Positions 2,949-45,388 of a DNA stretch of 64,000 nt are shown here, in pieces. How positions within the stretch are numbered: the first letter of the stretch is position 1; every line of letters starts with the position of its first letter. The notes under the pieces were generated by a model. It saw only the letters and a list, made by a program, of their open reading frames with translations, was not told the DNA's origin and searched no databases. The translations under genes and the position numbers were made by a program. This DNA comes from a bacterium HR15 (GTDB taxonomy: Bacteria > Armatimonadota > Fimbriimonadia > Fimbriimonadales > GBS-DC): contig BEHR01000012.1 of NCBI GenBank assembly GCA_002898555.1, forward strand, positions 1-64,000. The letters run 5' to 3'.

Positions 2949-2999
2949 AAATTTTTCTCTGACCCCGCTGCGCTAAGTATCCCAGAGAAAAAATTTCAG
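2945..2999. repeat. Inverted repeat/hairpin at the end of the methylase gene
   Basis: Two 17-bp arms (2945-2961 and 2983-2999; AT-rich, ending CTCTG and starting CAGAG) pair with one mismatch around a 21-nt loop. Arms of closely similar sequence recur at 33765-33825, just before cas6. It could be a terminator or a small mobile repeat; its left arm overlaps the last codons of the methylase gene. Confidence 0.6.
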
Positions 3000-3040
3000 G
3001 ATGGAATAGGGGCGCACCGATGTGTGCGCTCTATTGCCAG

Positions 3041-31401: not shown

Positions 31402-31905
31402 CTACTCACCCTCTGCTCCCTGCAAAATTGGCTTCTCCATCAACCATTCGGCAAGATGCAGGGCGCGAATGAGCAGCCCGGCGCGTTTCGCGTGATTTGC
31501 GAACCAGCGTGTGCCCCAGCGGACGACCCGCGTCCATGCTCCGGGATGGCGAGCGACCCAGCCATAGAACTTCAAAGCCACCCGTTCCCACCAGGGCAAG
31601 CAGCGTTTGACTGCCATCGCACGCCAACGCACCAGCAGATCATGCAGCGGGATGCCCACGGGGCAGACTTCCGTGCATGCTCCGCACAGCGTACTGGCAT
31701 GCGCCAATTCTGCTCGTTGCCCATTCGTGAGCATCGGTGTGACAATCGCGCCAATCGGACCGGGATAGACCGAATCGTAGGCATGCCCCCCGATGGCTTG
31801 ATAGACAGGGCATACATTCAGACATGCGCCACAGCGAATGCAGCGCAGAGCATCCTCCATCGGTGTGCCCAGCCAGCGCGATCGCCCATTATCCACAATC
31901 ACCAC
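31402..31905 (-). pseudogene. lutB: lutB-like iron-sulfur protein, 5' half replaced at a CRISPR repeat
   Basis: The remaining 167 codons match the C-terminal third of LutB/YkgF-type lactate-utilisation proteins: VDNGRSRWLG, then two ferredoxin clusters CIRCGACLNVCP and CGACTEVCPVGIPLHDLL. The reading continues a few codons upstream (APPELHV) and then runs into the TAA of a CRISPR repeat on the same strand (31926-31955). The N-terminal LUD domain (about 300 residues) is absent. A GTG at 31905 could still start a short ferredoxin-like protein, but the lactate-oxidation function is most likely lost. No lutA or lutC lies nearby. Confidence 0.8.
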
Positions 31906-31925
31906 ATGGAGTTCAGGAGGCGCAT

Positions 31926-32037
31926 GTTTTTAGCCTACCTGTGAGGGATTGAAACGTGAGGGATTGAAACTTGCGCTGCGCGGCAGCACGCGCATGAGAA
32001 TCTCAGCGTTTTTAGCCTACCTGTGAGGGATTGAAAC
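31926..32037 (+). CRISPR. Two-repeat mini-array with duplicated partial repeat
   Basis: Two full 30-nt repeats (31926-31955, 32008-32037), identical to those of the main array (GTTTTTAGCC...GGGATTGAAAC). Directly after the first comes a 15-nt copy of the repeat's 3' half (31956-31970), then a 37-nt spacer (31971-32007). The left edge abuts the truncated lutB; the right edge runs into the 5' region of a membrane-protein gene. It is probably a recombination remnant of the main array at 42233-45388. Confidence 0.9.
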
Positions 32038-32090: not shown

Positions 32091-33728
32091 ATGCTCAAAC
32101 GGGAAGTTTGGCTGATCCCCATAGGGATATGGGTATTGTGCGTTGGTTACGCACTGCTCACTATCGTGCTCCGTGCCTACTATGTGGATGCGGAGGGTGT
32201 TCGCCAAGCAGCGCTGCTCGCCGTCGGGCCTGAGCGAAGTGCGCTCGCCTTCTGGAACGGCCATGCCCCTCTCGGCATGCTCTTAATGTGGTTGCTGGTG
32301 AAACCACTGACCTGGCTAATGCCCCTTGAGGAAAAAATTTTGGAGGCGACTCAGCTGATAGGTGCCATTTCCATCGCGCTGACAGGGTTAGTGTTATTTC
32401 GTCTGCTGCGCCTGACAGGGCTTGCAGTGGGATTGTGCGGCTGGCTCACTTTTCTGTTTCTGACCGCGAATGTTGCCTGGGTGGGAGCAACGATGCTCGG
32501 TTTTGCCTCGCTTGCGTTGCTGCTGATGGCATTGTGGGCGCGCGCGGCGGTCAGCTTCTTGATGCAGCGCGAGATTGAGACGAGTGTGGCGGTACGTATG
32601 GGGCTGATCGGCGGACTGCTCGGTGCCGTTAATCTGTTTGCGCTGCTGCCGGCACTGGTGCTGGGTGCACTCAGCGCACGACAGCGTGGTGTAGGTGGCT
32701 ATTGGATAGCGATGCTGATGACAGTGCTGATTCTTTATCTCGGAGTCTATTTTGCGGTGCTGCCTGCCCAGGTGCAGCGGGGAGGAATAGAACAGCCGAA
32801 GCCCTCGCTGATCGCTTGGCTCTGGACAGGAGACGGAGGCTCCCCGCTGGAACCATCTCCCTGGTCTGGTCTCTACTGGCAGGCAGTGGGCGAGCAAGTA
32901 CAAAACGCCTTGCTGGCGCTGGGGCGACCCTTCCGCGTGCGCGATGTGTATCAATACTTTCTGAGCGGTACCTTCGTCACCTTACTGAAGGGCGCGTTTC
33001 TGCTCCTGCTCATGATCCTGATTATCACGCTGTTCACCCTCCGAGCAGGGGGCGAATGGCTGCCGCCTGACCGTGCCACGCGGACACTGCGTCAGCTCAC
33101 GGGCTGGAGCCTGCTGCTGATGGGGCTGGTCTTACTGCTCTGGCAGGGTGATAGGCAAGCGTGCTACCTGTGGACCTATTTCTGGGCAATAGGTGCGCTG
33201 GGTGGCTGGCTCGCCTGCTATTCAGAAGCGGATACACAGCGAATCGGCTATGTGCTGCCGCCACTGGTGCTGGTGATGGCGCTGTTCGGCTTGATGAAGA
33301 TCAGCTCGTTGCGCTTGCCCGAACACGATTCGGAGCGTCAAGAGGCAGAAGCGGTGCAAACAGGCATCCAGAAAGGCGATATCTTGCTTGCTGCGGGTCG
33401 CCTGGCAGATCTGCTGCGCTACTACACAGCGGGGCGTGCGCAAGTGGTTGCCGCGGAATATTGGCGCATGCCCGACAAAGAGTTCCAACAGTTGCTGGAG
33501 CAGGCACGAAAGCAGAAACGACGCGTGATTATCTGGGAATATGCGTTGAACCCCGATTATTATCGGCACGCCCATGCCAATATGCCTGCTGAATGGCTGA
33601 CCGCCATGGAACGCGCTCAACAAGCTTGGCGCGAGCGTGGCGGCGCCTATCTGCGCCGCTATACAAAGTTGGTCGCCTATCCCACGCTGATCGAATGGAA
33701 CGGCGAGGTGCAAACCTTTGAGCCATAA
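32091..33728 (+). CDS. Multi-TM membrane protein, glycosyltransferase-like layout
   Basis: 545 aa from ATG 32091 (MLKREVWLIPIGIWVLC). A longer frame begins inside the CRISPR repeat but has no ribosome site. About eleven membrane segments span 5-385, with VLRAYYVDAEGVRQAALL in the first outer loop, similar in position to the acidic loop of GT-C enzymes. A soluble C-terminal domain of about 140 residues (RQEAEAVQTGIQKGDILLAAG..., RRVIIWEYALNPDYYRH) follows. It is not a known Cas protein. It is trapped between the mini-array and cas6. Function unknown. Confidence 0.65.
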   Translation: MLKREVWLIPIGIWVLCVGYALLTIVLRAYYVDAEGVRQAALLAVGPERSALAFWNGHAPLGMLLMWLLVKPLTWLMPLEEKILEATQLIGAISIALTGLVLFRLLRLTGLAVGLCGWLTFLFLTANVAWVGATMLGFASLALLLMALWARAAVSFLMQREIETSVAVRMGLIGGLLGAVNLFALLPALVLGALSARQRGVGGYWIAMLMTVLILYLGVYFAVLPAQVQRGGIEQPKPSLIAWLWTGDGGSPLEPSPWSGLYWQAVGEQVQNALLALGRPFRVRDVYQYFLSGTFVTLLKGAFLLLLMILIITLFTLRAGGEWLPPDRATRTLRQLTGWSLLLMGLVLLLWQGDRQACYLWTYFWAIGALGGWLACYSEADTQRIGYVLPPLVLVMALFGLMKISSLRLPEHDSERQEAEAVQTGIQKGDILLAAGRLADLLRYYTAGRAQVVAAEYWRMPDKEFQQLLEQARKQKRRVIIWEYALNPDYYRHAHANMPAEWLTAMERAQQAWRERGGAYLRRYTKLVAYPTLIEWNGEVQTFEP

Positions 33729-33839: not shown

Positions 33840-34631
33840 ATGCGACTGAAACTTTTATTGGGCAAGCGGAATAAATCGTTTGCTGTGCCCACGCACTATA
33901 ACTACTTTCTGCAATCGCTCATCTACCATCATTTGGATGCCCATTTGGCACAGCAACTGCATGATGAGGGCATTGGCGAGGGCACCAAACGCTTTCGCTA
34001 CTTCACTTTCTCTCGCCTGATAGGTCATTTCCAGCGACAGGGCGAGCAGCTCATCTTTCCGCGCGGCGCGATTCTCTATATCGCTTCGCCCAACCATGCC
34101 TTCCTCGAATCGCTGGTGCTGCGCTTGCTGGCGCAGGGCGAAATCGTTGTGGATGAACAATCCATCCCATTGTACAAAATTGAGGTGCTGCCGCAGCCTG
34201 CGTACCAGCCCGAAGTCATCCTGAAAGCGCTCTCACCCATCACCTTGCGTGAGACGCTGCGCCAGCCCTCTGAGAAATACACCTACTACTACACCCCTCA
34301 CGAGCCCGACTTCAGCGAGCGAATCATCAGCAACCTGCGCAGTAAAGTGCGCTTTTGGTACGGGCGCGATATTCCCCCCGGCGATGCCTACTGCCTACCG
34401 CATGCGGTGGATCCGCAGAAAAACTACCATGTGATTAACTTCAAGGGCACATGGGTCAAAGGCTGGAGCGGGCTGTATCGGTTTCATGCGCCGCCGGAAT
34501 ATTTTCAGATGGCGATCGAAGCGGGTATTGGTGAGCGCAACTCTGGAGGCTTCGGCTGTGTGGAAGTGTATCAACCAGTGCGCAAAAAGCCCCGCAAGCA
34601 TCCCTCCGAACAGGAACTAAATGGTGTATAA
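33840..34631 (+). CDS. cas6: CRISPR endoribonuclease Cas6
   Basis: 263 aa with the tandem ferredoxin-like fold pattern of Cas6: MRLKLLL... at the first strand, THYNYFLQSLIYHHLD, where a His could be catalytic (about 19 or 30), and the C-terminal Gly-rich loop AGIGERNSGGFGCVEV (about 234-249). It cuts pre-crRNA within the repeat, leaving the ATTGAAAC 8-nt tag seen at the repeat 3' end. It is the only cas6 here, so it probably serves both the type I-B and type III-D systems. A TATAAT (34626-34631) at its 3' end may start a second transcript for the effector genes. Confidence 0.92.
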   Translation: MRLKLLLGKRNKSFAVPTHYNYFLQSLIYHHLDAHLAQQLHDEGIGEGTKRFRYFTFSRLIGHFQRQGEQLIFPRGAILYIASPNHAFLESLVLRLLAQGEIVVDEQSIPLYKIEVLPQPAYQPEVILKALSPITLRETLRQPSEKYTYYYTPHEPDFSERIISNLRSKVRFWYGRDIPPGDAYCLPHAVDPQKNYHVINFKGTWVKGWSGLYRFHAPPEYFQMAIEAGIGERNSGGFGCVEVYQPVRKKPRKHPSEQELNGV

Positions 34632-34661
34632 TTCAGTATCCACGGTTTGTAGGAGGTCTCT

Positions 34662-36119
34662 ATGAGCTTACTGGACAAAGCGACAGGGAACTTCTGGATC
34701 GATAATGGGCTGGTGATGCTACATCAAGTCTTGCGAGGTGGCAACCTGCCTGAGGATGTTAACTCAGTGGTTCAGCGGATAGTTCAGCGCATCTATGTGG
34801 AGACGGGTAAAACGGCGGAGTACTTGGATTCGCAAACGCAACAGATTAAAACATACAAAAAGCGTAATTGGAAAGAGCCAATCGGTTTGTTTATCAGTGT
34901 GGTGGACCAGGTGCCTAAGCAGAAGGTGGGTGATAAAGAGTATTACACACGCCCCCCAGAGCCAAGAATCGCGATTCAGCCCGCTGGTAATCAGCGATGC
35001 GACTTTTGCGGCGAGAAAGGCAAAGTGGTGAGCGCTAAGCTTTATCTGTTTCCTTTTGTGATCGATCCGAACAAATTCGCCAACTTTTATTCGCATGCGC
35101 GGCGCGGGCTAAAGATGTGCGCCCGCTGTGCGGTGGCGGGCTTTGCAGCATTTGAGAGCTGGCTCTGGCGGCGTCAAGGGAAGACCTTTCACTTTTTCTT
35201 GTTCCACACCGACTTGGATCGCCTCCATGCGCTCCACAACAGCCTCATCGCGCAGATCCAACTGTCAGAAAGCACATCGGGCGGCAACTTCGAGGCTCCC
35301 TTTTTTGGCGAATATCCCTTCGAGAATCTGTTCGCGCTCCTTTTGCGTCTGTTCGAGTGGCTTCATCATCGCGAGCCTGAAGGGGAGCTGGATCCCATAC
35401 TTGCTGAGCTAACAGGAGCGTGTCCTGTAGCTGGCAATCCCATCGTTATCTATGCGATCAGCGGTATTGATAGTGGCAAGAGCTTCTCGATGCGCGCGCT
35501 GAACCAGTTTGACCGATTCCAACCTTTCTATCGTCTCTATAAGAGCTGGCTTGAAGGGCTTGCAGGACTGTCGGCGACACCTCCCCATCAGGCTCTCATC
35601 CAAGTCTTTCGGCAGTTTCAGCATCGTCGCCAACAATCCACGGAAACGCTTTGGCGCGAGCAAATTTGCCGCGCCATTCTGCAGCAGGCAGACCCTGCTC
35701 CCACCGTCGAGCGCTTCCTCTACGAAGTGAGTACCGACACGCGAAAGCCAGCTGTATACGGCACGCGGGAAGTGCTGCACATCTACCTAAGGGAGGTCAT
35801 GAAGATGGATGAAAAACTGCTCAACATTCTCAGTGGCTTTGGCTATCACCTCGGCAGTCAGGCTGCCGATAAGCAAGAGATGGGGCTGTTGTATGCCCTG
35901 CGCAACGCGAAAAATCTCGACCAGTTCATGGAGGTGCTTAACCAGATCCAGTTCACCCTTGGTCTCACAATCAACCCAGAGCTGCTACGCGTAGAGCCGG
36001 GCGAGCGCATTGCAGGCGCGCCGTGGAACCGCGTCAAGACACTGCTGGCAATCCATGCGATGAACGCCTACCTGCGTAAGCAGCAAGGGTCAACCACGAC
36101 GGAAGGAGGAGAGCAATGA
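34662..36119 (+). CDS. cas8b: Type I-B large subunit Cas8 (Cst1/CXXC-CXXC family)
   Basis: 485 aa. It carries the two cysteine pairs that name the Cst1 family: CDFC (about 112-115) and CARC (about 149-152), probably one zinc site. The rest is mainly helical, with a C-terminal helical bundle that may act as built-in small subunit. As the Cascade large subunit it recognises the PAM and recruits Cas3. GGAGGTC precedes the ATG. Its stop overlaps the start of cas7 by 4 nt (ATGA), showing coupled translation. Confidence 0.88.
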   Translation: MSLLDKATGNFWIDNGLVMLHQVLRGGNLPEDVNSVVQRIVQRIYVETGKTAEYLDSQTQQIKTYKKRNWKEPIGLFISVVDQVPKQKVGDKEYYTRPPEPRIAIQPAGNQRCDFCGEKGKVVSAKLYLFPFVIDPNKFANFYSHARRGLKMCARCAVAGFAAFESWLWRRQGKTFHFFLFHTDLDRLHALHNSLIAQIQLSESTSGGNFEAPFFGEYPFENLFALLLRLFEWLHHREPEGELDPILAELTGACPVAGNPIVIYAISGIDSGKSFSMRALNQFDRFQPFYRLYKSWLEGLAGLSATPPHQALIQVFRQFQHRRQQSTETLWREQICRAILQQADPAPTVERFLYEVSTDTRKPAVYGTREVLHIYLREVMKMDEKLLNILSGFGYHLGSQAADKQEMGLLYALRNAKNLDQFMEVLNQIQFTLGLTINPELLRVEPGERIAGAPWNRVKTLLAIHAMNAYLRKQQGSTTTEGGEQ

Positions 36120-37042
36120 GCAAAGCGATAACCATAACCTATCTGGTCAAGGTCTCAGCAGCGAATGTGAACGCCTCCCACACAGAGGGGAATATCCAGA
36201 CCATCAAGCGCGTGACCCTGCCCGATGGGGGTGTGCTACCCTATATTTCGGGGCAAGCGGTGCGGCGCATGTTGCGCGACCGACTGGAAGATCTGGGGTG
36301 GGTGCTCTCGGAACCCTTCGCACGAGTCAGCGGGCAAGAGGTTACTCCCCCTGTGGAACCCGACAAATATATCGACGAAGACCTGTTCGGATACATGGAT
36401 GCCAGCGGCGCGAGGCGTAGAACCTCACCCACGCGCGTTTCCGCGTTGGTTGGGCTGTTCCCCTACTGGGGCGATCGCGACCTGGGCACACGCTCCTTTG
36501 AACGGTTCACCGGTACCCCTGCCGAAGGGGGCAACATGTTCGAAACGGAACTGTATCACAACCTGTTTTGTGGCACGATGCTGGTGGAGCTGGATCGTGT
36601 GGGTATTATTCCGGGCAACGAGCTGGGTAGAAATGCTTCTCGGATTGAGCTGCCCATCGAAGAGCGTCGAAAGCGCGTACAGGCTCTTGTGCAGGCGTTA
36701 AACCTGCTCTGGGGTGGTGGGCGTACCGCGCGCATGCTGACCGATCTCTCACCACGGTTCCTCGCCTACGCTCGCCTACAAGTCAAAACACCGCTCTTTC
36801 TGGAATCGGTGCGAGCCTTCTATCAACAAGGGGGCTATCTGCTGCAGACAGAGCCGATTCTGCACGCCGTGAGTCGCCTACCCGTGGACTGGCGCCAGAA
36901 GGTGTTGTTCGGCTACGAGCCGGGCTTTTTCGCCAATGAACAGGAGCTACGCAACGCGCTCCGCGAGGTGGGAACCGTGATGCCCATAGCGGAGTTAATC
37001 CCCACGGTCCAAAACGACATCGCCGAGGGAATGGTGGAATGA
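36116..37042 (+). CDS. cas7: Type I-B backbone protein Cas7 (Cst2/DevR family)
   Basis: 308 aa. The opening ITITYLVKVSAANVNASHTEGN and LPYISGQAVRRMLRDRL match Cst2/DevR, the Cas7 RAMP that polymerises along the crRNA. GGRTARMLTDLSPRFLAYARL is the second conserved block. It overlaps cas8 and cas5 by 4 nt each. Confidence 0.93.
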   Translation: MSKAITITYLVKVSAANVNASHTEGNIQTIKRVTLPDGGVLPYISGQAVRRMLRDRLEDLGWVLSEPFARVSGQEVTPPVEPDKYIDEDLFGYMDASGARRRTSPTRVSALVGLFPYWGDRDLGTRSFERFTGTPAEGGNMFETELYHNLFCGTMLVELDRVGIIPGNELGRNASRIELPIEERRKRVQALVQALNLLWGGGRTARMLTDLSPRFLAYARLQVKTPLFLESVRAFYQQGGYLLQTEPILHAVSRLPVDWRQKVLFGYEPGFFANEQELRNALREVGTVMPIAELIPTVQNDIAEGMVE

Positions 37043-37755
37043 CGCAAGTGCTTGCTGTACAGGTGGAGGCGCCGGTGGCGTCGTTTCGGCGTCGGCTGGA
37101 TCATACCTATCAGCGCACTCTGCCCCTGCCACCCCTCACCACACTGATAGGACTGGCAGGGGCAGCCCTCGGGAATGATGTCGCGACTCTCTGGAGCGAT
37201 GCCAGCCCACTCAAAGAGCTAAAGGTGCAAGTACTTGCCCAAAATCAGCCCGCCCGCGCAATCGATGTATGGACGCTGCTCAAAATCAAGGCGGGTAAGA
37301 TGGAACGCTCGCCCTACCTACGCGAACTGCTCTTTGATGCCCGATTTACCCTGCTCTATGGTGGGACACAGGAACAACTTTCGAGGCTCTACGATGCCTT
37401 CTTGCAGCCCGTCTATCCGCTTTCGTTGGGACGGGAGGACGAGCTGCTGCGCGTCACCTCATGCGAGATTCTGGAGTGCCCGCCCGCTTCCAGTCCCTTT
37501 CTGTTCTATGGAACCCTCTTGCCGGGCGACCTGCGCTTGCTGAACGCTCGACCTATTCTCCAAGAGGGTCTTGTGCTGGAACCCGCTACGGTGGAGCGTC
37601 TCCCCACACGCTTTGAGGTGGACCCGAACGGCGTTCGCCATCCCGCCGATGAACAGACCTTTACCTTCTTACCTTACAATGTTCACATCGAAATAGAAAC
37701 TCTTAACCGCCCTGTTTATCGATATGACGAGCGATGCTTTGTCTGGCTCCCGTAA
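37039..37755 (+). CDS. cas5: Cas5 (Cas5t-like)
   Basis: 238 aa. The N-terminal strand-loop VQVEAPVASFRRRLDHTYQR followed by TLPLPPLTTLIGLAGAALG is the Cas5 core, where the crRNA 5' handle is bound and capped. It has the expected length for Cas5t and the expected place between cas7 and cas3. Confidence 0.92.
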   Translation: MTQVLAVQVEAPVASFRRRLDHTYQRTLPLPPLTTLIGLAGAALGNDVATLWSDASPLKELKVQVLAQNQPARAIDVWTLLKIKAGKMERSPYLRELLFDARFTLLYGGTQEQLSRLYDAFLQPVYPLSLGREDELLRVTSCEILECPPASSPFLFYGTLLPGDLRLLNARPILQEGLVLEPATVERLPTRFEVDPNGVRHPADEQTFTFLPYNVHIEIETLNRPVYRYDERCFVWLP

Positions 37756-37806
37756 ACGAGTAGCAGGGGCACAACGCCGCTGTGCCTCGACATGAAGGAG
37801 GGTCAT

Positions 37807-39999
37807 ATGGAGCTGTTGGCGAAGCCGGACGAAACATTAACAGATCATACGAAGCGTGTGCTTAAAATCGCGCAAGAGATAGGGAAGCGGCTCCGAATCC
37901 CTGAGACATTAAGGGAGCGCATCAAGCTGGCTTGCCTAATGCATGATGTGGGCAAAGCGACTCGTTCGTTTCAGAAGCGCATTTGTGAGGCGCAGCAGCT
38001 TTCCGAGCGACCATCCACCGCCTATCCACACGCGCTCGCCTCATTTCTCCTTACCTTCGCGCTGGAGAGGAAGCAATTCGGGCAGTCGTCTGCTCCACTC
38101 GCAGCAGCAGCCGTCCTCAGTCATCACTCGCCTTTGCACCCTACTCTCTATCAGGGATTGAAAAGCCCCGATTGGATTCGTGACGCACTGCAACAGTGGT
38201 TGGAACGGTGGTTTCCATCACCAGACATAATAGCGCAGCTTCAGCCTCTGCTTGACAGAAACCCTTCGGAATGGCTCCATCAAGAATTCAACTATCCCGA
38301 CGGAAGCCGCACCCTGATGGAGCAACTGCAACGCTTACCTGTCCAGGATTTCTCCACCGTGAAAGCGGTTCTCTGCCTTGCTGACTGGCTCACTTCCGGG
38401 GGGCATCCCAGCGCGGACATGTTGTTCTTGAATGGGGGAGCGCAGCTGCTTCAACGGCATCTACGACGCAAAAGGTTTTCGCTCTACAGCTATCAACAGC
38501 GTGTGCTGGAGGTGGACACTCCGCGCCTCTATCTCCATGCACCCACGGGGTCAGGGAAGACGGAGGCGCTGCTCCTGTGGGCAGGCGAGACAGAGCGCAT
38601 TCTCTACCTGCTTCCCACGCAAGCAACGGTGAACGCGATGTATAAGCGTCTCCAGCGCATTTATGGCGAAGCGGTGGTTGGCATTGCGCATTCACACGCC
38701 TTACTGGAAATCGCTCGCGATATCGAAGAGCCGCCCCTCGACGCGCGACTGTTCAGCCATGTCTTTGCCAAACCGATCACCATCGCTACCTTAGATCAGT
38801 ATCTTTTGGCGCACTTGCACGGACGCCACTGGGAGATTCGGCGTGCCTTGTGCCGAAACGCCACGGTGCTGATGGACGAGATTCATGCCTACGAGCCTTA
38901 CACGCTGGGGTTGCTACAAGCCGCGTTAGAGAGCGATCCCCCCGCACGCTTCGCCGTCGCCAGTGCGACGCTCCCTTCGCCGCTGCGGCAAACACTGGGC
39001 GAGGCGTCCCTCATCACCGCGGAAAACCCTCTTTGGCACCAACAACGCCACCGCTTGTGTCTGGAAGACCAATCGCCCAGCGATGCCCTGCAAGAAGCAC
39101 TTCACCATGCAGCACGCGGCGAGACCGTGCTCTTTGTGGTGAACATCGTGCCACTGGCGCAGCAACTCTATCAACAAGCGCAGGCAATAGCACAACAGAT
39201 GCGGGTCGGAGAGATAAATTTTGTCGCACCTACTGTGAAACTGCTGCACTCACGGTTTATCTATCGGGATCGCCGTCAGAAAGAACAGACAATCTCCACC
39301 CCGTCTACAGGCACGCTGCTCATTACCACGCAGGTTGTCGAAGTGAGTTTGGACATTTCCTATCAACGGCTCTACACAGAACTCGCGCCGCTCGATGCCC
39401 TTGTGCAACGGATGGGGCGTGTGAACCGAAAAGGCGAGCAAACTCGCCCTGCACCAGTGCACATCTTGTGCCGCTATGACGGTCGCTCGGAATACCTGTA
39501 TGGAGCCAACACCCTGCAACAAACCCTGCAGCTGCTACAAGCACTTCCTGAAACCCCCACCAATCAAGACTTATCGGAAGCCACGGACCAGTTGTATCGA
39601 TCTATCTGGCAGTCTGATGAATTCCAACGCGAACGGCAGCAGGGATATGAAACGCTAAAGGCAGTGCAACGGATTTGTGGTTGCTACACCATTGATCTGG
39701 CAGATGAGCAGATGCGCCAACGATTTGCCACCCGCAAGGGTGAAGTCCAGATAGAGGTGCTGCCTCAGATGTTTCAGCAAGAAGCCTATCGGCTGCGTGA
39801 GCAGAAATCGCTCTGGCGATTGCCGGAGCTGCTGGTGCCCGTACCTTACTGGTGGCTGATTCGGTTTGCGGAGCGATTCGAAGTCCCGCGCGATCTGGGT
39901 GTGCCCATCACGAGCCTCCCTTACGATTCTGAAATAGGGCTGGCGCATCCCTTGCAGGAAGAAGGGCAGCCCGCCGATGTCTTGATGGAGTGGATCTAA
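37807..39999 (+). CDS. cas3: Cas3 nuclease-helicase (HD plus SF2)
   Basis: 730 aa from the ATG at 37807, whose AAGGAGG lies just upstream (an ATG at 37792 contains that site). The HD nuclease comes first: LACLMHDVGKATRSF holds the HD pair (about 46-47), and SHHSPLH the later His residues. The SF2 helicase follows: Walker A APTGSGKTEALL (about 245-256), DEIHAY (DExH box, about 356), SATLP, and motif VI QRMGRVNRKG. It degrades target DNA recruited by Cascade. It follows cas5 after a 51-nt gap. Confidence 0.96.
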   Translation: MELLAKPDETLTDHTKRVLKIAQEIGKRLRIPETLRERIKLACLMHDVGKATRSFQKRICEAQQLSERPSTAYPHALASFLLTFALERKQFGQSSAPLAAAAVLSHHSPLHPTLYQGLKSPDWIRDALQQWLERWFPSPDIIAQLQPLLDRNPSEWLHQEFNYPDGSRTLMEQLQRLPVQDFSTVKAVLCLADWLTSGGHPSADMLFLNGGAQLLQRHLRRKRFSLYSYQQRVLEVDTPRLYLHAPTGSGKTEALLLWAGETERILYLLPTQATVNAMYKRLQRIYGEAVVGIAHSHALLEIARDIEEPPLDARLFSHVFAKPITIATLDQYLLAHLHGRHWEIRRALCRNATVLMDEIHAYEPYTLGLLQAALESDPPARFAVASATLPSPLRQTLGEASLITAENPLWHQQRHRLCLEDQSPSDALQEALHHAARGETVLFVVNIVPLAQQLYQQAQAIAQQMRVGEINFVAPTVKLLHSRFIYRDRRQKEQTISTPSTGTLLITTQVVEVSLDISYQRLYTELAPLDALVQRMGRVNRKGEQTRPAPVHILCRYDGRSEYLYGANTLQQTLQLLQALPETPTNQDLSEATDQLYRSIWQSDEFQRERQQGYETLKAVQRICGCYTIDLADEQMRQRFATRKGEVQIEVLPQMFQQEAYRLREQKSLWRLPELLVPVPYWWLIRFAERFEVPRDLGVPITSLPYDSEIGLAHPLQEEGQPADVLMEWI

Positions 40000-40002
40000 A
40001 CA

Positions 40003-40587
40003 ATGGAAGTGCAAGCACCCGTGGAACTGGACCTGCCAGAAGAAGGCTGGGATGAGCGGGCAGTACGCGGATATGAACTCAACGCATGGGTCGTCTGCCC
40101 CCGTAAATGCTGGTTCCTGCAACGCCAGCTGACGATGGAAGCCCACTCGCCCTATGTCGAATTAGGGCGCCTAATCCATCAGGAGGCGTTAGCCGCACCG
40201 CCTCAAGGCAGTTTTAGGGAGGTCCCTATCGAGGGCTTCGCCCGTATCGATAAAATCGCAGGGGAACTGGTGTACGAAATCAAACGCAGTCCGCGCAAAC
40301 AGGAGGCACACCGCCTGCAACTGCTCTACTACCTCTACCTGCTGCGCGAACGCGGGCTGAACCTCAAAGGCGTGCTCCTCTATCCCGAACAGAATCGGCG
40401 CGAAACCGTGACCCTGGACGAAGTTGGGCTGCAACAGCTGCAGCACGCCCTCGATGCCATAACGCAACTGCGCCAGCAACCCCTGCCACCCCATGTGCCC
40501 AAACCCATGAGCATCTGCCGTACTTGCGCCTATCAGGAACTCTGCTGGTGCGACGAGAACCCAAGCGAGAAGGAGGAACAGCCATGA
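40003..40587 (+). CDS. cas4: Cas4 exonuclease
   Basis: 194 aa. The first Cys of the iron-sulfur cluster lies in NAWVVCPRKCWFLQRQ, the RecB-like nuclease in LVYEIKRSPRK (Glu-x-Lys) and the last cysteines in CRTCAYQELCWC. It trims prespacers and helps select the PAM. It overlaps cas1 by 4 nt. Confidence 0.95.
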   Translation: MEVQAPVELDLPEEGWDERAVRGYELNAWVVCPRKCWFLQRQLTMEAHSPYVELGRLIHQEALAAPPQGSFREVPIEGFARIDKIAGELVYEIKRSPRKQEAHRLQLLYYLYLLRERGLNLKGVLLYPEQNRRETVTLDEVGLQQLQHALDAITQLRQQPLPPHVPKPMSICRTCAYQELCWCDENPSEKEEQP

Positions 40588-41576
40588 AAAAAAGCCTCTA
40601 TATCAACAGCCACTGCACCCTACAACGCGACCAGAACACCCTGCTGCTCGAAATGGACAACGGCGAGAGACGCTATCTGCCCATCGAAAGCGTGCGCGAA
40701 CTGCATGTGTTCGGCGAAGTGAACCTGAACAAGCGCGTGCTGGAGTTCTTAAGCCAGAACCAAATCCTCGTGCATTTCTATAACTACTACGGCTACTACA
40801 CCGGCAGCTACTACCCGCGTGAACACTTCAACTCCGGTTACATGCTGCTCAAACAGGTGGAACACTATTTGGACGAGGCGCGCCGCCTGGACCTGGCACG
40901 ACGCTTCGTACAAGGCGCACTGACCAACCTGCAGCTCGTGGCGCGCTACTACCATAACCGCCAGACGCCTTTAGACGATACCCTGCACACATTGCAGACC
41001 CTGCACGACACCGCCACCCACTGCACCCAGATCGAGGCGCTGATGCAGATCGAAGGCAAAGCACGCGAGGCTTACTACACCATCTTTGACCGAATCCTGC
41101 AACATCCCGATTTCACCTTCGGTAAGCGCACGCGCCGTCCCCCACGCAACCGCTTGAACGCGCTCCTCTCCTTCGGCAACAGTCTGCTTTATACCGTTGT
41201 CCTCTCCGAAATCTATCAAACTCATCTCGACCCGCGTATCGGCTACCTGCATACCACCAACTTCCGCCGCTTCACCCTGAATCTCGACATCGCCGAAGTG
41301 TTCAAACCTGTGCTGGTGGATCGAACCCTCCTCACCCTCATCCAGAGACGCCAGATCCGTGCCGAGCATTTCGCTGAGGAGACCGCCGGCATCTACCTCA
41401 ACGAAGAGGGGCGCAAGATCTTTCTGAAAGCATGGGAAGAACGCCTGCAAAGCACTTTCCAGCACCGCACGCTCAAACGCCATGTTTCCTATCGTACCGC
41501 CATTCGCCTCGATCTGTACAAACTGGAAAAGCACCTGATGGGTGAGAAGCCCTATGAACCGTTCAAGCTGAGGTGA
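40584..41576 (+). CDS. cas1: Cas1 integrase
   Basis: 330 aa from ATG 40584, preceded by AAGGAGG. Catalytic residues fit Cas1: Glu in QIEGKAREAYYTIFD (about 157), His in GYLHTTNF (about 222) and Asp/Glu in DIAEVFKPVLVD (about 234-245). The N-terminal beta domain (SLYINSHCTLQRDQNTLLLE) is present. It is the subtype I-B form of Cas1, forming the integrase with Cas2. Confidence 0.97.
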   Translation: MKKSLYINSHCTLQRDQNTLLLEMDNGERRYLPIESVRELHVFGEVNLNKRVLEFLSQNQILVHFYNYYGYYTGSYYPREHFNSGYMLLKQVEHYLDEARRLDLARRFVQGALTNLQLVARYYHNRQTPLDDTLHTLQTLHDTATHCTQIEALMQIEGKAREAYYTIFDRILQHPDFTFGKRTRRPPRNRLNALLSFGNSLLYTVVLSEIYQTHLDPRIGYLHTTNFRRFTLNLDIAEVFKPVLVDRTLLTLIQRRQIRAEHFAEETAGIYLNEEGRKIFLKAWEERLQSTFQHRTLKRHVSYRTAIRLDLYKLEKHLMGEKPYEPFKLR

Positions 41577-41580
41577 GCCG

Positions 41581-41844
41581 ATGTATGTGATCATGGTCTA
41601 TGATGTGAATGTGGCGCGTGTGCAGAAGGTGCTCAAGACGGGGCGCAAATATCTCACTTGGGTGCAGAACTCGGTCTTTGAAGGCGAGTTGACGGAGGCA
41701 CAATTCGCTCGCCTGCAGCGCGCACTGCAGAAGATCATCGACCCGGAGGAAGATAGTATTCTGTTTTATCTGTTGCGTACCACCGCCTATTTAGAACGCC
41801 AGACACTCGGCGTCATCAAAAATGAACCCACCCAGTTCCTCTGA
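41581..41844 (+). CDS. cas2: Cas2
   Basis: 87 aa with the first strand MYVIMVYDVN (catalytic-position Asp8) and the dimerisation strand TAYLERQTLGV. It is the structural partner of Cas1. It starts 4 nt after cas1. Confidence 0.97.
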   Translation: MYVIMVYDVNVARVQKVLKTGRKYLTWVQNSVFEGELTEAQFARLQRALQKIIDPEEDSILFYLLRTTAYLERQTLGVIKNEPTQFL

Positions 41845-42232
41845 TAGGCAAGCGGTCCGGGGACATCCCCGATTTGTCGGGGCAGAAGGGCATAAGGAGC
41901 GCGATGCAAGCGAACCACTCCCTCCAAATGGCTCAAATTTTGAACCTGTTTTTGACTAACCAGTCGTTCGACGACATTTTCACCCACCACCCACTACATC
42001 CTGTATCCCTATCCCCAACAAAAACCCTACCCCTCGTATGACAAAAACCCGCTTGTCGTCGATCGCCGACTTTCTGCCCTCTGAGTTCAAATCGCCACCC
42101 GATCGACGACAGGACTTGACTTTGTTGTCACCGATAGGGTATAGTATGGTCGCCAACGGGCAAAGTGCGTGCACCTTGACAATCGGGCTTTTTTGAGTTC
42201 AGCGGGATGGCTGACCCCCCGCGTGGGGGTTG
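41845..42232 (+). promoter_or_regulatory. CRISPR leader with promoter
   Basis: Non-coding. It contains a hairpin CCCCGA-TTTG-TCGGGG soon after cas2 and a 12-bp inverted repeat (TGTCGTCGATCG at 42054-42065 and its complement at 42100-42111). A promoter follows: TTGACT (42116-42121), 18-bp spacer, TATAGT (42140-42145). Transcription would run into the array about 80 nt later. The degenerate last repeat at the far end agrees with this being the leader side. Confidence 0.75.
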
Positions 42233-45200
42233 GTTTTTAGCCTACCTGTGAGGGATTGAAACTTCGCGTATTCGCGCGAAAGGCGTAGGGCTTGTATTGT
42301 TTTTAGCCTACCTGTGAGGGATTGAAACGGGAAGTATACGCAGGCTGAATTGTTGTTGCTTCGTTTTTAGCCTACCTGTGAGGGATTGAAACGGGATTCT
42401 TGGTAACGGGCGATATATCTCGCACGTCGTTTTTAGCCTACCTGTGAGGGATTGAAACTCATAATTCTTATGAGGGAGGGAATGGAAATGTCTCCGTTTT
42501 TAGCCTACCTGTGAGGGATTGAAACAGCGTTTGTTGTCGCTGCGCGATGTAATCTTGTTCTGTTTTTAGCCTACCTGTGAGGGATTGAAACTCCTGCTGT
42601 GCCAGTCCCAGCGCGCGGCATAATCCGGTTTTTAGCCTACCTGTGAGGGATTGAAACGTCGCAAGCAGCGGAGGTACTACTGGATCGAGGCTAGTTTTTA
42701 GCCTACCTGTGAGGGATTGAAACCCAGCAGAGGGCTGCCCATGCGGCGATGTACGCTACGTTTTTAGCCTACCTGTGAGGGATTGAAACAAGAGGTAATA
42801 ATCGGTATCGGGCGTCGCTGCGGGCGTGTCGAACAGTTTTTAGCCTACCTGTGAGGGATTGAAACCGCGCACGACCACTTCCGCCCCCCCCTGGTCCAAT
42901 TCGTTTTTAGCCTACCTGTGAGGGATTGAAACTGCTTTTGTTCAGGGGGGGGCAGTGGGTGAAAGGGTTTTTAGCCTACCTGTGAGGGATTGAAACTGGG
43001 GTGGCGTTGTGGTTTTGCATTCCCACGCCACCGTTTTTAGCCTACCTGTGAGGGATTGAAACTTCGCCATCGAGGTATCGTCGGGCGGCAAGGAGGGCAG
43101 TTTTTAGCCTACCTGTGAGGGATTGAAACTTTCATATCCAATCCTTACCAGACGAACTTTCATGTCGTTTTTAGCCTACCTGTGAGGGATTGAAACGGGG
43201 CAAGTACTTGCCCTGGTGTTACGACAAAACTCGTTTTTAGCCTACCTGTGAGGGATTGAAACGGGCGAAAAGAGGAGGAGAATGATGATGGGAGACATGT
43301 TTTTAGCCTACCTGTGAGGGATTGAAACCAGGGGGGGGCGGGGGGATTAAAGCAGTTTCTGGAGGTTTTTAGCCTACCTGTGAGGGATTGAAACCGCAGG
43401 GGGGCGGGCACGAGGCGACCCTGCGCGGTTGCCCGTTTTTAGCCTACCTGTGAGGGATTGAAACAAGAGGTAATAATCGGTATCGGGCGTCGCTGCGGGC
43501 GGTTTTTAGCCTACCTGTGAGGGATTGAAACACTGGTATGCTGAACGCGGGTGCGGTCTCTATGCGGGTTTTTAGCCTACCTGTGAGGGATTGAAACAAA
43601 GGCTCAAACAAACTCACCACGCCGTTGTTCTCCGTTTTTAGCCTACCTGTGAGGGATTGAAACTGCCTTGGTCCGAACTAATTCACCGTTCGGACCAAGT
43701 TTTTAGCCTACCTGTGAGGGATTGAAACCTCAAACGGGGTTGGGGGTTGGATAGACGGTGGTCGGTTTTTAGCCTACCTGTGAGGGATTGAAACTCGCAC
43801 CTCACGCAACAGCACCTGCTGCGGATAAGTGAGTTTTTAGCCTACCTGTGAGGGATTGAAACGTGTGCCCGCTTCCCTGCGCGGCGTGGCGGGCAGCCGT
43901 TTTTAGCCTACCTGTGAGGGATTGAAACGTGGTGCACCGTGTGCCCGCAAGCGGCGCACACGGTGTTTTTAGCCTACCTGTGAGGGATTGAAACTTGTTT
44001 GACCCCCCCCAACACCCTGTGGTGCACCGTGTTTTTAGCCTACCTGTGAGGGATTGAAACACCGGCTGCAAGATGGAGACGGTATAGATAGCCGGTGTTT
44101 TTAGCCTACCTGTGAGGGATTGAAACCCAAGCCGAGAATTTGGGTGGAATCTTATTCCACCCGTTTTTAGCCTACCTGTGAGGGATTGAAACGCGATCCT
44201 TTACAAGAGGATCGCCCTCAGCACCACGAGTTTTTAGCCTACCTGTGAGGGATTGAAACAGCGCTGCGGGCTGCGCTGGAGGCGCTGGGGCGCGTGTTTT
44301 TAGCCTACCTGTGAGGGATTGAAACGACCTACAATCGCATCGAACCCTTGTTTCTGGTAAGGTTTTTAGCCTACCTGTGAGGGATTGAAACCACGCGCCA
44401 CCCCAAGCAGGGGGGGGGTTAGCGATGTTTTTAGCCTACCTGTGAGGGATTGAAACGCAGAGTCAGTTGTGAAAAAAAGTCCCCCGGCGGTGAAGTTTTT
44501 AGCCTACCTGTGAGGGATTGAAACGCATTGTCCTGCGCGGCACTGCGGATGGCGATGGTGTTTTTAGCCTACCTGTGAGGGATTGAAACGCGGCGGAAGC
44601 GGGTGCGTAACGCAGGAGACCACTCCGAGTTTTTAGCCTACCTGTGAGGGATTGAAACGGGCCTGCGTGGCAGGCTACAGAGCGCCCGCAGCAGGTTTTT
44701 AGCCTACCTGTGAGGGATTGAAACCATCGTTGTATTGCCGTGTATTCAGGGGGCCGGCATAGTTTTTAGCCTACCTGTGAGGGATTGAAACGCTCCTCCA
44801 ACAGAGGCTGGCAGAGCCGTAGACCCCGTTTTTAGCCTACCTGTGAGGGATTGAAACGGCCCGCATGGCCCGGGCCAGCCCCGCTGTAGAGAAGTTTTTA
44901 GCCTACCTGTGAGGGATTGAAACATGTCCCGCTGCAGCTGTTTCAGCTGCTTTTTGCTGGTTTTTAGCCTACCTGTGAGGGATTGAAACCCTCAAACGTA
45001 CAGTCGTACCGTCGGTGGATGAGCCAGGTTTTTAGCCTACCTGTGAGGGATTGAAACGGAGGCGAGCCTCCAGGGCGGCGGCCGCCGCCTCGAGTTTTTA
45101 GCCTACCTGTGAGGGATTGAAACAATATGGGGCAAAAATCGCAAAATTGAGGCTAAATTGTTTTTAGCCTACCTGTGAGGGATTGAAACTCACCACCGCC

Positions 45201-45388
45201 AGATCAGATTGGGGGTCAAACTTTTGTGTTTTTAGCCTACCTGTGAGGGATTGAAACACTGGCTGGAAGCGCAGAGGCGGGTGGCGGACTACGTTTTTAG
45301 CCTACCTGTGAGGGATTGAAACGCTGCTGGAAGATTTATCCATTCTTACACCTCCAAAGTTTTTAGCCTACCTGTGAGGGATTGAAAT
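42233..45388 (+). CRISPR. Main CRISPR array, 48 repeats and 47 spacers
   Basis: The 30-nt repeat begins GTTTTTAGCCTACC and ends GGGATTGAAAC; all copies I checked are identical except the last (45359-45388), whose final base is T, marking the leader-distal end. Spacers are mostly 35-38 nt (one of 46). The ATTGAAAC end is the 8-nt crRNA handle of I-B and type III systems. Spacer 9 (42790-42835) and spacer 19 (43465-43501) share 37 nt. Spacers 26 and 27 (43929-43964, 43995-44030) share GTGGTGCACCGT. Several spacers form hairpins or contain runs of eight or more G or C. Confidence 0.99.

Follow-up and report, generated by a model that had tools for sequence, protein, structure and literature searches.

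The window analysed here, a stretch of 64,000 nt, carries a type I-B cas operon and a 48-repeat CRISPR array within 14 kb of a two-repeat mini-array that abuts a truncated lutB gene. Along the plus strand, the lutB remnant is followed by a repeat, a 15-nt half-repeat, a 37-nt spacer, a second repeat, 53 bp and a membrane-protein gene; the mini-array lies ~1.8 kb upstream of cas6. That lutB is cut exactly at a CRISPR repeat had been proposed in an earlier note, and direct reading of the sequence bore out its coordinates, frame and in-frame TAA. The probable derivation of the spacer from lutB, the LutA tail and the nearby cas operon with its 48-repeat array go beyond what that note had described. 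The features are listed below, with cas1 and cas2 assigned by position and direct reading.

31402..31925, minus strand: lutB remnant, a pseudogene comprising the C-terminal 4Fe-4S part of LutB from about residue 283 (Thermoflexus numbering), with a LutA-like tail RAGLLIRALHLAEWLM
31889..31925, plus strand: hypothetical former second lutB spacer of 37 nt, postulated because the junction coincides exactly with a repeat edge; the CCA in front of it would be compatible with a CCN PAM
31926..31955, plus strand: CRISPR repeat 1, perfect, abutting lutB directly, without a leader
31956..31970, plus strand: tandem duplicate of the repeat's last 15 nt, directly after repeat 1
31971..32007, plus strand: 37-nt spacer whose reverse complement encodes AEILMRVLPRSA, corresponding to LutB residues ~249-260
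32008..32037, plus strand: CRISPR repeat 2, perfect; the DNA beyond it is not lutB
32091..33728, plus strand: membrane-protein gene with an intact 5' end, the right border of the fused locus; family homologues align from ATG 32091
33840..41845, plus strand: type I-B cas operon with cas6, cas8b, cas7 (Cst2/DevR), cas5, cas3, cas4, then cas1 and cas2
42233..45388, plus strand: main CRISPR array, 48 repeats, with a leader; repeat and orientation as at lutB

A profile search with the ORF at 31402-31925 (minus strand) gave a match to TIGR00273, the LutB model, over positions 269-425 of 432 (E=7e-49), and a Fer4_8 domain was also matched in a Pfam search. Full LutB consists of a LUD domain followed by an Fe-S domain; the ORF holds the Fe-S part only, and its 166.8 bits lie below the TIGR00273 cut-off of 444.8 bits. 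Its reading frame is open up to the exact edge of the repeat, which itself supplies the in-frame TAA (TAA AAA CAT GCG), and its closest homologue is Thermoflexus LutB, with 65% protein identity. The LUD half is indeed missing, as the earlier note had stated, and no PF02589 domain was found in the 98%-complete assembly. The lutB 5' half that was suggested to survive next to a repeat elsewhere did not turn up, no second lutB fragment adjoining a CRISPR repeat being found in the genome. A true stand-alone ferredoxin-like gene, the outcome that had been named as speaking against truncation, is contradicted by the comparison with relatives: the genomes of the same family returned weak, generic ferredoxin matches only and the remnant gene was absent from all that were searched, while LutB is full-length in Thermoflexus and in those relatives of the order that gave matches. 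No lutB relatives were found in viral contigs.

The last residues of the remnant belong to LutA and not to LutB. Thirteen of 16 residues of RAGLLIRALHLAEWLM are identical to Thermoflexus LutA RQGLPIRAMHLAEWLM, with an alignment score of 67 vs a maximum of 53 in 2000 shuffles. Because the gene order in Thermoflexus is lutB-lutC-lutA and the remnant ends in a LutA tail, lutC and most of lutA must also have been lost here. The lut operon in this genome is an eroded relic, and it was perhaps acquired horizontally.

The two copies of the 30-nt repeat GTTTTTAGCCTACCTGTGAGGGATTGAAAC at 31926-31955 and 32008-32037 are perfect (0 expected from shuffles), both match Rfam CRISPR-DR2, and they are identical, in the same orientation, to the repeat of the array at 42233-45388. 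By this identity to an array beside type I-B cas genes the mini-array belongs to type I-B, but it lacks the leader that such an array should have, only lutB lying to the left of 31926. The eight other arrays of the genome comprise four large and four small ones, and in each the first repeat is preceded by a leader with the ending CAGCGGG(A/G)TGG(C/T)TG...GGGGG, the exception to this rule being a degenerate pair on contig C22.

The arrays showed several further features. Three large arrays have leaders that are identical over 280-400 nt (window 41860-42232, and L051 and L055 on contigs C15 and C16), and one spacer (TTGCGTGCATAAGG...) is common to contigs C15 and C7; leader-plus-array units thus seem to have been duplicated recently in the genome. 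Mini-arrays with a leader, comprising one or two spacers or just one repeat, occur dispersed in genomes of the family (L052 on G000:C19, L053 on C53, L050 on C15, L098 on G004:C12 and L101 on G007:C186). In the other mini-arrays (on C53, C19a, C15 at 59.8 kb and C22), where the remnants at the flanks are very short or the adjoining gene is intact, no DNA match between spacer and flanks was found. Some spacers hold pieces of repeat (AAAATCCCTCACAGGTAGGCTAAA; TTAGCCTGCCTGTGAGGGAT), at oriented positions 2983-3018 and 3248-3283 of L051 (C15) and before 3778 in L055 (C16), and look as though they had been taken from arrays or from repeat-bearing foreign DNA. One spacer is present twice in the main array, as 46 nt at window 42790-42835 and as 37 nt at 43465-43501. 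In several genomes of the family, array ends have an additional half-repeat resembling GTGAGGGATTGAAA next to a repeat (window 31956-31970; L050, reverse complement, 2052; L094 and L095, after terminal repeats).

Judged from its sequence, the 37-nt spacer very probably derives from lutB. Its peptide AEILMRVLPRSA agrees with Thermoflexus LutB AEILLRVLARSATGQ (residues 249-263) in 10 of 12 residues, and 27 of 37 nt are identical, with a single in-frame place. The protein score of 44 was reached by none of 5000 dinucleotide shuffles and by none of the 133 other spacers of the genome, the best of which scored 36. This comparison was made with the lutB of Thermoflexus, at 65% protein identity, the spacer's own target being gone, and the spacer had no other match in the genome. 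The matched segment belongs to the half of lutB that is missing here, has the same reading direction as the remnant, and would lie 63 nt from the remnant's first base if the Thermoflexus spacing holds. Addition of the spacer peptide to the remnant brought no material gain in the TIGR00273 score (167.6 vs 166.8 bits), and the alignment extended in register over the added peptide, from model position 236 on. The length of the spacer is normal, nearly all others having 34-41 nt.

CCN-type PAMs are typical of type I-B systems. The CCA that precedes position 31889 is likely a chance match among the possible spacer lengths and carries little weight. A PAM search in which three spacers were scanned against viruses yielded no matches, and overlapping spacers in the arrays, read directly, suggest the flanks TTT, CAG and CCG, with no consensus motif.

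On the right of the fused locus, homologues of the membrane-protein gene from the family start aligning at about residue 20 of the TTG-started ORF, that is, at ATG 32091. The gene has no Pfam match and is present in 16 of the 17 family genomes searched. In these genomes the tested neighbours from the window were not found next to it, save for short partial matches to one ORF's end, so these relatives do not show the ancestral arrangement. Nor was a strain with both an intact lutB and the array found in a comparison set that included one genome of the genus.

We consider it reasonably likely that the lutB locus is a fossil of CRISPR autoimmunity, in which a neighbouring array took up self spacers and a deletion removed the targeted half of the gene together with the array's leader. 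A CRISPR (mini-)array, of the dispersed kind with a leader that is seen elsewhere in the genome, would have been a neighbour of lutB and would have acquired spacers from it, of which the 37-nt spacer would be the survivor. A deletion between the array and lutB would then have taken both the LUD half, which contained the spacer's target, and the leader. The survivor, left with neither a target for the spacer nor a leader to express it, would have escaped autoimmunity, and self-targeting may have been the selective force. In the proposed deletion step, a second, leader-proximal lutB spacer, represented by the 37 nt that now stand left of repeat 1, would have recombined with its own protospacer. 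The position of the junction, exactly at the 5' edge of the repeat, would be accounted for if the recombining homology was the spacer adjoining that repeat. Such a specific crossover between spacer and protospacer can be offered only tentatively; we count against it that the second lutB spacer is not visible as such. In addition, the LutB-LutA fusion implies that the operon decayed by other deletions too, and self-targeting may be incidental.

The arrangement recurs at two other loci. On contig C19 of the genome that carries the lutB locus (G000), a unit of leader, repeat, spacer and repeat adjoins a DUF488 gene without its N-terminus, which begins no more than 2 nt beyond the repeat end; the remnant covers PF04343 positions 30-117. 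The spacer encodes ERFLELLRLHG, where the best homologue has MRFIRLLQLHS, 18 residues before the start of the remnant. Its score was reached by 2 of 5000 shuffles, and adding the spacer peptide to the remnant gave no material gain against Pfam DUF488 (48.4 vs 49.3 bits). In a genome of a second genus (G004:C12), the leader, repeat, spacer and repeat come first, then the beginning of the spacer in a second copy of 21 nt, and then the C-terminal remnant of a helicase-like protein that has ~900 aa in relatives; the junction falls inside this second, 21-nt copy. The spacer's other strand encodes PRIITFANAQF, as compared with PQIITFANARF, which lies ~160 residues upstream of the remnant in that protein, and neither any of 3000 shuffles nor any of 134 control spacers reached its score. 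This case is somewhat weaker because the motif resembles one that we take to be common in superfamily 1 helicases.

Every one of the three arrays abutting an identifiable gene remnant hence carries a spacer matching a stretch that the gene has lost, in a set of loci that was found by inspection and is not a blind count. Such fusions are not a feature of all array ends, since in G007 a solo leader-repeat abuts an apparently intact methyltransferase gene. The DUF488 and G004 loci carry private repeat mutations, which argue that they are real and old; the lutB repeats are unmutated. At lutB the deletion would have started in the gene and extended up to the 5' edge of repeat 1, with loss of the leader, and at DUF488 it would have begun at the 3' end of repeat 2 and reached into the gene, while the G004 junction inside the spacer copy fits end joining better. 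It is possible, although we would not call it probable, that CRISPR autoimmunity repeatedly destroys array-adjacent genes in this family and is resolved by array-target recombination that fuses the array with the remnant.

One concern is a chimeric assembly, in which a real array with lutB spacers was joined in silico to a real lutB at their common spacer/protospacer sequence. The genome is a 72-contig draft, the junction falls at the very point at which an overlap of spacer and protospacer would lead an assembler astray, and the perfect repeats at lutB are no safeguard, as a chimeric join would give the same sequence. However, the pattern is seen at three loci in two independently assembled genomes, a false join would not have made the private repeat mutations of the other two, and the lut operon became a relic through another deletion as well. 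The site is moreover in the middle of a 73-kb contig, in which the 48-repeat array was assembled through. We therefore regard a chimera as unlikely. Distinctly unlikely, in our judgement, is a half-site integration by Cas1-Cas2 that attached lutB, as a broken chromosome end, to the leader-repeat junction of an array and displaced the leader. In its favour, the lutB junction coincides with the Cas1 attack site on the leader side, and the DUF488 junction is no more than 2 nt away from the second such site, but the G004 junction lies inside a spacer copy, away from the repeat edge, and we know of no precedent for chromosome ends being used in half-site integration.

The earlier note had read the breakpoint as CRISPR DNA inserted or recombined into lutB, and as a view of a CRISPR locus on the move. 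Recombination with CRISPR DNA remains the best account. Insertion is very unlikely, even though the breakpoint falls exactly on the repeat edge and arrays do duplicate in this genome, as the matching leaders described above show: the DNA between the repeats, of spacer length, is in all likelihood lutB itself, the leader is absent, the right flank is not lutB, and the 5' half of the gene was found nowhere in the assembly. Instead of a locus moving in, the arrangement looks like a deletion that joined an array to its own target gene. Off-target (neo-CRISPR) integration was also considered and rejected; it would duplicate the host target as repeats, and the repeats here are letter-perfect canonical copies. 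A functional CreA-like regulatory mini-array would explain an ectopic repeat-spacer-repeat unit ~1.8 kb upstream of cas6, as CreTA modules use one or two extra-array repeats near type I-B cas genes (PMC9458426). The repeats of CreTA are degenerate and go with a toxin gene whose promoter holds a partial match, whereas those at lutB are perfect and no toxin gene was noticed; no promoter above chance level was found at the mini-array; and the best spacer matches within the window (23/37 nt or a 9-nt seed) include no notable target and none at the cas promoter. The spacer, moreover, very probably comes from the broken gene, and lutB already accounts for it. We consider this reading extremely improbable.

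The favoured reading, a deletion following self-targeting, is in line with experimental work in which CRISPR self-targeting was accompanied by deletion of the targeted chromosomal region (Vercoe et al. 2013, PMC3630108; review PMC6990116). The likeness lies in the self spacer and the loss of the targeted region; in those studies, however, the spacers were engineered or the array was distant from the deletion, whereas lutB is a case from a natural genome with the array joined to the remnant of its target. In the type I-B system of Haloferax volcanii, self-targeting led to new spacers centred on the target and to deletions by microhomology-mediated end joining (PMC7521656), so that spacers from the vicinity of the self-target and breaks repaired with deletions are shared with our proposal; the array structure there stayed intact, unlike at lutB, and we found no report there of array and target being fused. 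Recombination between a spacer and its cognate protospacer has been described in staphylococcal phages (Varble et al. 2019, Nat Microbiol, as cited in PMC10434264). As far as that citing text conveys, it likewise proceeds through spacer/protospacer identity, but it takes place between phage and chromosome and results in transfer, whereas the event at lutB would have been intrachromosomal and would have resulted in deletion.

Deletion of targeted regions by CRISPR autoimmunity is known from the laboratory, and its natural traces are hard to find, as the target vanishes. Here, a spacer presumed to be guilty lies next to what is left of its target, at three loci in two genera. Fusions of this kind can be searched for systematically, by looking for array ends that lie at a truncated gene and comparing the spacers with the missing part of that gene, and such a search would show how frequently self-immunity shapes genomes. 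If autoimmunity does act repeatedly on array-adjacent genes in this family, it would be a recurrent natural way of losing genes and disabling arrays.
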